The translations under genes were made by a program, and so were the position numbers. Of a stretch of DNA of 64,000 nucleotides, positions 22,359 through 55,161 are shown in pieces; position 1 is the stretch's first letter; every line of letters begins with the position of its first letter. The stretch comes from Pedomonas mirosovicensis (lineage in GTDB: Bacteria > Pseudomonadota > Alphaproteobacteria > Sphingomonadales > Sphingomonadaceae), in NCBI RefSeq assembly GCF_022569295.1, contig NZ_JAKFIA010000001.1:1689001-1753000 (forward strand), read 5' to 3'. The notes under the pieces are model-generated. The model did no database searches. It saw nothing but the letters and a program-made list of their open reading frames with translations, and was not told the origin of the DNA.

Positions 22359-22444
22359 GGGTTTTTGAGCAAAGTTGTTAGAGAGTTTTTCTATCTCCCT
22401 GAAACGCCTGAAGTTTTTGCGTTACGGGATGAGGAGACATGCAC

Positions 22445-23860
22445 ATGGCATCCCAGTTCGACGTTGTGGTGGTGGGCGGTGGCCCCGGCGGCTATGTGGC
22501 AGCGATCCGCGCCGCCCAGCTTGGCCTGAACACGGCGGTTGTGGAGCGCGAGCACCTGGGCGGCATCTGCCTCAACTGGGGCTGTATCCCAACGAAGGCG
22601 CTGCTGCGCTCCAGCGAGATGTACCACAACATGCAGAACGCCGCGGCCTACGGCCTCAAGGCGGACAACGTGTCGTTCGATCTCCAGGCGATCGTCAAGC
22701 GCTCGCGCGGCGTCTCCGGCCAGCTGAGCGCGGGCGTCAAGACGCTCCTCAAGAAGAACAAGGTGCAGGTGTTTGACGGCGAAGCCAAGCTCACCGCCAA
22801 GAACAAGCTCACCGTCTCCAAGGACGGCAAGGCGGTCGAGGACGTCTCCTTCAAGCACGTCATCCTCGCCACCGGCGCGCGGCCCCGCGAGCTGCCGCAC
22901 CTGAAGGCGGATGGCGAGCGCATCTGGAACTACAAGCACGCCCTCGTGCCCAACACCGTGCCGGGCAAGCTGCTGGTCATCGGCTCGGGCGCCATCGGCG
23001 TCGAGTTCGCCAGCTTCTTCTCCGACCTCGGCTCCAAGGTCACCATCGTCGAGATGATCGACCGCATCCTCCCCGTGGAGGATGAAGAGGTCTCCGCCTT
23101 CGTCGCCAAGGCCTTCACCAAGCAGGGCATCACCGTTCGCACCAAGGCGGGCGTCACCAAGCTGGAGAAGAAGGGCGAGGGCATTGCCGCCACCATCGAG
23201 GCCGAGGGCAAGAGCGAGGTGGTCGAGTTCGACCGCGTGATCCTCGCCATCGGCATTCAGGGCAATGTGGAGAACATCGGCCTTGAGACGCTGGGTATCG
23301 CCGTCGAGCGCGGCCAGATCGTGACGGACGGCTTTGGTCGCACCAACGTCCCCGGCGTCTGGGCCATCGGCGACGTGGCCGGTGCGCCGTGGCTCGCCCA
23401 CAAGGCCAGCCACGAGGGCGTCACCGCCGCCGAGAGCATCGCCGTCGAACTGGGCAAGGGCAAGGACGTGCATCCGCACCCGCTCAACAAGGCCAACATT
23501 CCGGGCTGCACCTACTGCCGCCCGCAGGTCGCCAGCGTCGGCCTCACCGAAGCCAAGGCGAAGGCCGCGGGCTACGAGGTGCGCGTCGGCAAGTTCCCGT
23601 TCATCGGCAACGGCAAGGCGATTGCGCTCGGCGAGCCCGAGGGCTTCATCAAGACCGTGTTCGACGCCAAGACCGGCGAGATGCTGGGCGCCCACATGGT
23701 CGGCGCGGAGGTGACCGAGCTGATCCAGGGCTACGTCGTCGCCCGCCAGCTCGAGACCACCGAGGCCGAGCTGATGCAGACCATCTTCGCCCACCCGACC
23801 CTCAGCGAAATGATGCACGAGGCCGTGCTCGACGCCTACGGCCGCGCCATCCATTTCTAG
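22445..23860 (+). CDS. lpd: Dihydrolipoyl dehydrogenase (E3)
   Basis: A 471-residue FAD disulfide oxidoreductase that reoxidises dihydrolipoyl groups. FAD motif VVVGGGPGGYVAAIRAAQLG, redox-active cysteines in GGICLNWGCIPTKAL, NAD motif VIGSGAIGVEFASF, and C-terminal HAHPTLSE-type text (FAHPTLSEMMHEAV). The ATG at 22445 lies 8 bases after GAGGAG; the ATG at 22439 is too close to it. Last gene of the pdh cluster, followed by repeat F. Confidence 0.96.
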   Translation: MASQFDVVVVGGGPGGYVAAIRAAQLGLNTAVVEREHLGGICLNWGCIPTKALLRSSEMYHNMQNAAAYGLKADNVSFDLQAIVKRSRGVSGQLSAGVKTLLKKNKVQVFDGEAKLTAKNKLTVSKDGKAVEDVSFKHVILATGARPRELPHLKADGERIWNYKHALVPNTVPGKLLVIGSGAIGVEFASFFSDLGSKVTIVEMIDRILPVEDEEVSAFVAKAFTKQGITVRTKAGVTKLEKKGEGIAATIEAEGKSEVVEFDRVILAIGIQGNVENIGLETLGIAVERGQIVTDGFGRTNVPGVWAIGDVAGAPWLAHKASHEGVTAAESIAVELGKGKDVHPHPLNKANIPGCTYCRPQVASVGLTEAKAKAAGYEVRVGKFPFIGNGKAIALGEPEGFIKTVFDAKTGEMLGAHMVGAEVTELIQGYVVARQLETTEAELMQTIFAHPTLSEMMHEAVLDAYGRAIHF

Positions 23861-24025: not shown

Positions 24026-24047
24026 GTTTTGCAATTAATTGCAAAAC
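24026..24047. repeat. 22-bp perfect AT-rich palindrome
   Basis: The half site GTTTTGCAATT is followed directly by its exact reverse complement. It abuts the minus-strand terminator at 24043-24079. It could be a protein-binding site or a second hairpin of that terminator. Confidence 0.55.
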
Positions 24048-24079
24048 GAAAAGACCCCGCAGGGGGCATACCCGCGGGG
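24043..24079 (-). terminator. Minus-strand terminator, first of two matching copies
   Basis: On the minus strand CCCCGC...GCGGGG is followed by TCTTTTCGTTTT. No gene is known to end here, so an unannotated minus-strand transcript is implied. A 17-base core is identical to the copy at 24638. Confidence 0.6.
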
Positions 24080-24433
24080 CCTGATGGAAAGGTTCGAATG
24101 CTCTTTCCTGCAGAGATGGGTCTGACTATACGCCATCCATCCAGGCCCACAACGGCCTTATAGTCGAATATCCAGAGCCCGGTGTAACGCGGGCACAGCG
24201 GATTGAACCTGCCCTAAGGCTCTGATTGGTAGGTCGTATCCACTGCTGGGGGTTTTAAGAAATATAAAAGAATTACAACAACTTACGACCATGACTGTGT
24301 TGTCATGTCCAACGCGGCTTGCTTCCATGCTGCTTGCCCGCCTGGCTGGTTGAGGGCATCGGCAATGCATCCTGCCGACAACCGCCTTGATCCGCACATT
24401 GCGGAAATCTCCGGGCTGGAAAGGAGGATGAAA

Positions 24434-24538
24434 ATGCTAGTTTCTGCAGAGATCTTGACGGTCATTATATCACTGCTGGCGCTGTTGATCTCGGCAATCC
24501 GATTAGGATTGTCGCTTGAGAGGCGGCGCAAGGAGTAG
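24434..24538 (+). CDS. 34-residue hydrophobic peptide, possible type I toxin or small membrane protein
   Basis: MLVSAEILTVIISLLALLIS continues AIRLGLSLERRRKE: one membrane helix followed by a strongly basic tail. The Shine-Dalgarno AAGGAGG lies exactly 6 bases before the chosen ATG. Another ATG at 24428 directly follows it and is too close. Length, single helix and charged tail resemble small holin-like or type I toxin peptides. Supporting context is the convergent minus-strand hairpin terminator at 24638, and a CCTCCTT at about 24597-24603 that is complementary to the ribosome binding site. It is below the usual size limit for gene callers. Function is inference only. Confidence 0.5.
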   Translation: MLVSAEILTVIISLLALLISAIRLGLSLERRRKE

Positions 24539-24637
24539 ACGGCCGCTAACGGGAGCGCATCCGGGCGGTGCTGGATGCCTTGGGCATCGCCTGGAACCTC
24601 CTTATGGTCCGGAGCTTCCCTGTGGCCCGCATCGCCA

Positions 24638-24672
24638 AACGAAAAGACCCCGCCGGATTGACGCCAGCGGGG
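24638..24672 (-). terminator. Minus-strand terminator, second of two matching copies
   Basis: CCCCGC...GCGGGG on the minus strand followed by TCTTTTCGTTT. It shares AAACGAAAAGACCCCGC (plus-strand reading) with the copy at 24043. A minus-strand RNA beginning near 24750-24800 would end here. Confidence 0.6.
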
Positions 24673-24801
24673 CCTTGTAGAGCGAGAACTATGTTCTGCA
24701 TTCTGGAACAGGAAGAGCATAAAAAATTTCGCGTCAGCACGCAAACCCCTCATGGTCGAATACCGCACTCCGTGACCTAAATTGTTATAATTAAACACAT
24801 A

Positions 24802-24939
24802 TTAGACCACGGAGCCCTTGTAGCGGCTCGCCTCGCTTGGTCCTATGGCGATGCCCGGCTGGTTGGTTGATTGACCCGGCGGCTGCGTCCCGCTGGCCAG
24901 TATGGCCGCCGCCGCCACAGCGATTTGAGCCCCCCGCAT
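24802..24939 (-). CDS. Hypothetical 45-residue peptide with possible signal sequence
   Basis: MRGAQIAVAAAAILASG resembles a short signal peptide; the rest is Gln/Pro/Ser-rich and ends ASRYKGSVV. AGAGAGGG lies just before the ATG. It lies in the gene-poor patch with no homolog that I recognise. It may be a small exported peptide or a chance ORF. Confidence 0.3.
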   Translation of the reverse strand: MRGAQIAVAAAAILASGTQPPGQSTNQPGIAIGPSEASRYKGSVV

Positions 24940-25778
24940 AAGCCCTCTCTTGCCCTGGTCTATCCAGTCCCGGTCTGGTGCTGCCCGCCAATATACCTAA
25001 TTTTTTGTAATTAAGTACTGGCAAGGGCAGGGCGACTATCGTCAAAAAAGCATTTCAAGAGGTTTTTTCCTTGACATTTTATAGGAAAATACCTATCGTT
25101 TCCCCATCGCGATAGGGTTGTTGAGTCGGTTGCATCTCCCGTCCCTGCGTTGGGACCGCAGGTTTTTGTTGGCGCTTTGGGTGGCCTCGCCGGGCGCGCC
25201 GTTCGCGGCGCAGGGGTCATCGTCGCGGGGGCGTTCTTCCCCGCCTGGGGCAAATCAGGATCACAGGATCAAGGGCACCCTGCCGAGGTCAGGGTGGATA
25301 TGGCGCCGAACATCGGCGGACACGCCATCATGTCCGGACAGGACCGCAGGGGGCGGTCAGCGGCACAGGCGCGCCGGGTTCGCGTATGAAAGTCGGTTCA
25401 TGTGTTCAGGGTCCGGTGGCGGTTGCTGTCACCGGTTATGCCGGTACGGTGCCCTTGTGGCACGGTTGAGGGCCGGTACGCGTATCCTTTGCCCAACTCC
25501 GGACAACGGAGTCTCCGGACAGCGGGCAGTCGTCCAGAGCAGCAGGCGGGGCGTCAGCTCACGCTTGCGGCGAAAAGCCAATCACAAACGCTTGCAGCGG
25601 CAAGCGAACCGCGACCGCCTGCGACGGCAGGCCTGTCCCCAAACCCTCGATCCGCCCCGCCCGAGTTGACCCTGATCCACCGACACCGAAACGGCCCTCA
25701 ACCACCGGCACCACCGCAGCAGGATTGATCGGCACGAAAGAGCAGGAAGGGGCCTCGCGTTATGAGGCTTAATGAGGC
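24940..25778. other. 839-base region without a supported gene
   Basis: It contains a strong-looking promoter at 25071 and then about 650 bases of GC-rich sequence with short hairpins (for example GTGCC-CTTGT-GGCAC near 25449-25463, and GCTTGC/GCAAGC near 25590). Frames of 79-183 codons exist on both strands, but none has a ribosome binding site, family motif or convincing start. It may be a non-coding RNA or the remnant of a gene. Confidence 0.4.
25071..25116 (+). promoter_or_regulatory. Sigma70-type promoter with overlapping inverted repeats
   Basis: TTGACA (25071-25076), 17-base spacer, TATCGT (25094-25099). Inside the spacer is ATAGG-6-CCTAT (25081-25096), and CCTATCG at 25092 pairs again with CGATAGG at 25110-25116. 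This looks like a repressed promoter. No recognised gene follows. Confidence 0.5.
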
Positions 25779-26143: not shown

Positions 26144-27844
<1,701 letters not shown>

Positions 27845-54535: not shown

Positions 54536-54625
54536 GGAGGGATGGCCGAGTGGTTTAAGGCACCGGTCTTGAAAACCGGCGTGGGTGCAAGCTCACCGTG
54601 GGTTCGAATCCCACTCCCTCCGCCA
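54536..54625 (+). tRNA. tRNA-Ser (UGA anticodon)
   Basis: A 90-base cloverleaf with encoded CCA. Acceptor GGAGGGA pairs with TCCCTCC, anticodon loop CTTGAAA gives TGA, there is a long variable arm (class II, GTGGGTGCAAGCTCAC), and the T-loop is GGGTTCGAATCCC. Confidence 0.97.
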
Positions 54626-54860: not shown

Positions 54861-55070
54861 ATGAATACCGGAATTGTTAAGTTCTTCAACACCACCAAGG
54901 GCTTTGGCTTCATTCAACCCGACAATGGCGCACAAGACGTGTTCGTCCATATCTCGGCGGTTGAGCGCTCTGGCATGCACACGCTCACCGAGGGCCAGAA
55001 GGTGAACTTCGAAGTTGTTCGGGACAACCGCTCGGGCAAGAGCGCGGCGGAGAACCTTCAGGCTGCGTAA
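54861..55070 (+). CDS. cspA: Cold-shock protein, single domain
   Basis: 69 residues: [20 protein letters not shown] (RNP1) and [14 protein letters not shown] (RNP2). RNA chaperone. AAAGGAAA precedes the ATG. The 235 bases between the tRNA and the start are AT-rich and probably form a promoter plus a long leader, common in cold-shock genes. A terminator follows. Confidence 0.95.
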
Positions 55071-55130
55071 GCCTTTACCTTCGATCTATGACCACGGATG
55101 TACTGGCACAGATCGTTGAGAAAGCGGGAG

Positions 55131-55161
55131 AGGCCGGGTCTGTGCCCGGCCTTTTCTTTTT
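55131..55161 (+). terminator. Rho-independent terminator after cspA
   Basis: AGGCCGGG with CCCGGCCT around a TCTGTG loop, followed by TTTCTTTTTC. Confidence 0.85.

Follow-up and report, generated by a model that had tools for sequence, protein, structure and literature searches.

An open reading frame for a small peptide lies in the gap between two genes assigned by Pfam. One (22439-23860) is of the dihydrolipoamide dehydrogenase type, and its product has pyridine nucleotide-disulphide oxidoreductase domains. The other, which starts at 26303, is an acetyl-CoA hydrolase/transferase gene with Brevundimonas, Sphingomonas, Novosphingobium, and Caulobacter relatives among its best matches, which points to an alphaproteobacterial organism. 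The gap is part of the window, the whole 64,000-nucleotide stretch of DNA analyzed here, to which plain coordinates refer. A first-pass annotation had described a 34-residue peptide with a single helix, preceded by an AAGGAGG ribosome binding site (RBS) and a leader of at least 100 bases, with a minus-strand terminator further downstream. These features were recovered: hydropathy reaches 2.57 as a mean over 19 residues, the ATG lies 6 nt downstream of AAGGAGG, about 140 nt separate a conserved start element from the ATG, and the terminator maps to 24644-24676. Missed at that stage were a second minus-strand terminator (24052-24082) and a 21-nt direct repeat, D2 (24097-24117 / 24433-24453), which marks the actual antisense site. 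The two terminators form a similar pair 593 bp apart (45-nt direct repeat D1); the upstream one ends the small RNA (sRNA) predicted for the window toxin, win1, and the downstream one ends win2, the sRNA of a second, tandem cassette (Table 1).

Table 1. Parts of the two tandem cassettes in the window. Covariance model R1 was built from the sRNA family, the window copy included; "training member" marks matches that also belonged to the model's own alignment.
Feature	Position	Strand	Basis
Predicted antitoxin sRNA win1, ~110 nt, divergent from toxin	24046-24156	-	R1 match 24045-24176; fold z -2.5
Intrinsic terminator of antitoxin sRNA	24052-24082	-	12-bp stem and U run; 13-bp terminator helix common to the sRNAs
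sRNA antisense segment, complementary to toxin RBS/start region	24085-24117	-	Local score 35; duplex -44.2 kcal/mol
Element GGATATTCGACTATAAG at predicted sRNA start, common to other cassettes	24157-24173	-	Cassette sequence comparison; putative promoter
Element TTACGACCATGAC at predicted mRNA start, similar to the sRNA-start motif	24283-24295	+	Alignment A7; putative promoter/start site
Structured 5' leader of toxin mRNA	24290-24433	+	Covariance model R2 match 24279-24427, E 1.4e-39 (training member)
Translation initiation region (RBS, ATG, first codons), predicted sRNA target	24417-24453	+	Complementarity, duplex, and co-folding
Shine-Dalgarno AAGGAGG	24421-24427	+	Sequence; in the minimum-energy fold it pairs for the most part with leader 24330-24335
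Toxin-like peptide MLVSAEILTVIISLLALLISAIRLGLSLERRRKE, 34 aa	24434-24538	+	Four paralogues; codon position 2 changed least
Toxin mRNA 3' hairpin, including CCTCCTT mostly paired to GGGAG	24551-24602	+	Folding; equivalent hairpin in paralogues
Second predicted antitoxin-type sRNA win2, orphan, tandem cassette	24638-24760	-	R1 match 24638-24768, E 1.6e-28 (training member)
Second-cassette leader, no toxin ORF after it	24797-24929	+	R2 match, E 1.8e-20 (training member)

One order of parts is common to the window and two further copies described below, cA and cB: the terminator of the divergent RNA, the sRNA body, an GGATATTCGACCATGAG-like element, an AT-rich spacer, an TACGACCATAG element, a leader of about 140-165 nt, the RBS, the peptide, and a 3' hairpin. 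A typical cassette has a predicted sRNA of about 110 nt with its own terminator, upstream of the toxin and divergent from it, back to back with a structured mRNA leader of about 140 nt. This divergent arrangement is found in the window, cA, cB, and the toxin-deleted copy cD, and not in cC; the tandem cassette of the window lacks the initiation region and the peptide.

In almost every cassette, an TATTCGACYATRAG-like element is present as an inverted pair where the two divergent RNAs are predicted to start (in the window at 24157-24173, 24283-24295, 24749-24764, and 24800-24814, and in the paralogues too), and could be a common promoter or regulator site. No sigma-70 promoter was recognizable near the predicted starts, and a scan of 23.8-25.3 kb for SOS control sites (GTTC-N7-GTTC / GAAC-N7-GAAC) returned none. 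The motif TNHGACCATRRNG has 24 sites and its reversed form 6, but most of the 24 lie outside cassettes, and the motif is therefore not diagnostic. Between 24930 and 25760 there follows a further 0.8 kb with no assigned function, which contains a sigma-70-like site (25071-25099) and inverted repeats.

The toxin-like peptide and its mRNA

Relatives of the window peptide are encoded at three other sites of the same genome, C1:964644-964742 (-), C1:1091606-1091701 (-), and C2:181382-181480 (+), which we call cA (L012), cB (L013), and cC (L014), respectively. Profile E values across all four peptides of this genome run from 7e-18 to 6e-17, and likeness is also found pairwise. With three paralogues in this one genome, the 34-residue reading frame is far beyond chance; for two of them the leader DNA is conserved as well (68-75% identity). 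Like the small hydrophobic toxins of the type I class, the four peptides are 32-34 residues long with a single hydrophobic helix and an arginine-rich tail; they also have an RLGLS motif, which together with one tail arginine is among the nine invariant positions of their alignment. Substitutions between copies fall mostly at codon positions 1 and 3 and rarely at position 2 (7/1/11 between the window and cA), and therefore the amino-acid pattern looks to be under selection.

The peptide had no match in Pfam even at E 10, which disposes of Hol_Tox (holin-like toxin), an idea prompted by copy cC. NCBIfam gave no accepted match; the best, YnaM/YnfT (NF041477), covers the helix with E 0.59, and membership was rejected at 10.5 bits, far under the cut-off of 35.

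The five leaders support a fold of local hairpins with 27 pairs, six of them with changes on both sides. In their alignment 84% of cells are paired, against 30-53% when it is slid, a count that leans in the structure's favor because the structure was derived from the same alignment. Three of the four toxin mRNAs fold better than shuffled sequences (z -2.9 to -4.0), while cB does not (z -0.4), and the 3' hairpins carry no clear U run. A long-range 5'-3' clamp of the hok/AapA type, to which the alignment fold pointed, was discarded, as pairing of the leader with the 3' region was no better than for shuffled leaders and covariation was weak.

Predicted pairing of the sRNAs with the toxin start regions

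One half of D2 lies in the sRNA body and the other at the peptide's start, which makes the minus-strand sRNA a predicted antisense partner of the toxin start. Over its whole length, 24085-24117 against 24417-24453, the match has a local score that 0 of 1000 dinucleotide shuffles reach, and its duplex has a z of -3.5. The sequences of cA, cB, and cC differ, yet each sRNA body mirrors the RBS and start of its own toxin. Cognate local scores are 35, 30, 34, and 37 (each p<0.001, none being reached in 1000 dinucleotide shuffles apiece), against 11-26 for non-cognate combinations of the four toxin-bearing cassettes, and the true assignment of sRNAs to toxins is the best among the 24 possible, for pairs that are not fully independent because the paralogues share ancestry. 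Duplexes of cognate partners have energies of -42 to -53 kcal/mol; when the predicted RNAs are co-folded in full, the gain is -14.9 to -19.8 kcal/mol in cognate and -3.6 to -10.3 kcal/mol in non-cognate pairs among these four. Orphan sRNAs blur the energy contrast: win2 forms a duplex of -46.1 kcal/mol with cA, and the co-folding gains with cA are -13.3 kcal/mol for win2 and -14.7 kcal/mol for the sRNA of cD. Taken over the toxin-bearing copies, each sRNA appears specific in that it fits its own partner best, with a pairing sequence divergent between copies. All four of these cassettes have the RNA side of a type I system, an adjacent, separate predicted RNA gene complementary to the toxin mRNA, here with its own terminator.

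These matches also bear on whether the cassette might be a non-coding dispersed repeat, MITE or REP-like, in which both the reading frame and the complementarity arose by chance. Such a repeat would account for a unit of about 500 bp present in dispersed intergenic copies. It would not lead one to expect a peptide whose amino acids are conserved while synonymous changes separate the copies, an antisense match that in every copy follows the start region of that copy although the sequences have diverged, or a rearranged copy, cC, that keeps the match with its sRNA now downstream; we regard it as highly improbable.

The first-pass annotation implied a convergent minus-strand RNA, with its end at the 24644 terminator, as the partner of the peptide, and suggested that a CCTCCTT downstream of the peptide could pair with the RBS and so occlude it. 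The terminator and the CCTCCTT (24597-24603) both exist, and the sRNA of cC is indeed both downstream and convergent. But the body of win2 has no significant match to the window toxin (score 20, p=0.118), nor does it overlap the predicted toxin transcript, while none of the three paralogues has CCTCCTT within 95 nt past its stop and, in the window, the motif pairs with GGGAG in the mRNA 3' hairpin. We therefore reject win2 as the antitoxin and CCTCCTT as an RBS-blocking element, and consider control of the peptide by this route scarcely credible. The wider call of a type I toxin-antitoxin-like locus gains support from the paralogues, the upstream sRNA, and the cognate complementarity, even though its parts had been wrongly assigned.

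Cassette copies and loss of toxins

Model R1, built from five sRNA copies, detects seven in the genome, the two that played no part in building it being cD (C1:2633471-2633605, E 2.5e-13) and cE (C1:61604-61734, E 2e-8). The count of seven covers copies that keep a conserved leader, sRNA, or peptide, and others would be missed. Copying has, by all appearances, taken the cassette to six or more intergenic sites, with two of the seven copies in tandem in the window. Copy cD keeps the leader and the last toxin codons, with the initiation region and helix deleted, and its sRNA still mirrors GAAAGGAGG...ATG / GAAAGGAGGCCATTTGCATGACC, of which GAAAGGAGGCCATTTGCATGACC reads as a fossil of the lost toxin start. 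Only the sRNA is left in cE. In cC, where the sRNA is relocated downstream, the match to the toxin persists and an ATA stands where the start codon is expected; the 5' part of its sRNA region also contains a short tandem repeat, GGTTATGACGGCTATGAC (L014 ~2165-2205, near C2:181664-181704), found in none of the other copies.

The tally is seven sRNAs and four toxins, three of which have an ATG. This distribution weighs on a second alternative, in which the product is a small regulated membrane peptide rather than a toxin, its expression tuned by the sRNA in a membrane regulatory role such as has been suspected for TimP. The sequence evidence for RNA control fits that reading equally well, and TimP at its endogenous level permits growth (PMC7667032). 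However, three of the seven cassettes have lost the toxin and a fourth has no ATG for it, with every sRNA kept, an asymmetry that a harmful product predicts; several dispersed, private pairs also fit addiction-type modules. A benign regulated peptide is thus the less satisfying account, and we think it unlikely.

Outside this genome, the peptide profile found no true relative in 300 family and 400 order genomes, nor did the leader model in 400 family and 385 class genomes (overlapping sets that contained no further genome of the genus); weak matches were dismissed as brief segments within coding genes or within other reading frames. A GTDB peptide-pattern scan found no relative, and IMG/VR, phages, and plasmids gave no match. 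The conservation of the peptide that had been proposed as a check accordingly holds within the genome and not beyond it, and the toxin-sRNA family is known from one genome only.

Proposed mechanism and relation to known systems

We estimate a probability of roughly 0.8 that the window locus is a type I toxin-antitoxin cassette, and the copies together very probably make up a multicopy family, type I toxin-antitoxin-like and new, whose antitoxin lies on the side opposite to that noted earlier. One RNA would combine a long structured leader with a single-helix membrane peptide of 34 residues, presumably toxic on overproduction. A divergent sRNA, about 110 nt long and transcribed across a diverged direct repeat of the toxin start region, would pair over the Shine-Dalgarno sequence and start codon of the toxin mRNA and so block ribosome entry and hence translation, and the duplex would probably be cleaved by RNase III. 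Each sRNA would act on the toxin of its own cassette; copying to intergenic sites would be followed by loss or disabling of toxins, with the antitoxin genes persisting. The paralogues, leader, terminators, cognate-specific complementarity, and toxin losses are present in the DNA itself. We infer transcription, toxicity, and RNase III involvement by analogy with the known class, and translational block and physiological role are likewise inferences.

In its back-to-back divergent sRNA and toxin genes, its small single-helix toxin, and its long 5' leader, the cassette resembles zor-orz, tisB-istR1, shoB-ohsC, dinQ-agrB, and timP-timR. Paralogous loci with cognate-specific pairing are known for zor-orz (PMC3919570), and the toxin-less cassettes parallel the 'orz-only' loci, likewise toxin-less, of Escherichia coli (PMC11264685). 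In this E. coli group, however, the sRNA pairs within the leader, overlapping neither initiation site nor coding sequence (PMC4147584), and TimR binds more than 60 nt upstream of the RBS (PMC7667032), whereas pairing here covers the Shine-Dalgarno sequence, the start codon, and the first codons. The Pfam and NCBIfam searches gave no homology to the zor-orz/tisB-istR toxins.

The Fst/RNA II system par(pAD1), of a family hosted by Enterococcus and Staphylococcus, has oppositely read RNAs across direct repeats, and pairing sequesters the initiation site; its toxin has 33 residues, a single helix, and a charged tail, and poorly conserved repeats keep paralogues apart (PMC7472228). The direct repeats 24085-24117 / 24417-24453 similarly cover the initiation site and are probably read in opposite directions. 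The par genes are convergent with a shared bidirectional terminator, whose loops start pairing, unlike most copies here (cC excepted), which are divergent, and unlike the cassettes in general, which have separate terminators. The peptides have no Fst/Ldr match in Pfam at E 10, and the PXXXG motif is absent from all four. By the features tested, the cassette belongs to neither the zor-orz/tisB-istR nor the Fst/Ldr family, combining the divergent layout of the former with the start-site pairing of par(pAD1).

A more speculative extension, which we hold to be possible though doubtful, is a self-spreading cassette in which recombination or gene conversion between the direct repeats encoding the pairing partners renews the private toxin-sRNA specificity. 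Tandem duplication and later loss of opposite halves would turn a divergent sRNA into a convergent one, with the tandem stage represented by the window and the switched stage by cC, and sRNA copies without a toxin would persist as immunity or as regulators.

With their tiny toxins and rapidly evolving RNAs, type I systems are difficult to detect, and few are known in this bacterial group; in the literature, mostly outside subscription journals, we found none described for it. Seven sister cassettes, four with divergent private pairings, provide a natural series for the evolution of sRNA-target specificity, and the toxin-less copies make a retained function of orphan antitoxins testable.

A search of 23.9-25.1 kb against Rfam gave no match above gathering score; the best, a trpB motif at 24043-24143 (-) with 30.2 bits against 59, probably reflects only the terminator of the antitoxin sRNA. 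Elsewhere in the window, 55058-55160 (+), about 430 bp past a tRNA gene (54536-54622), matches the alphaproteobacterial sRNA ar35 of Rfam with 51.6 bits (E 1e-6).
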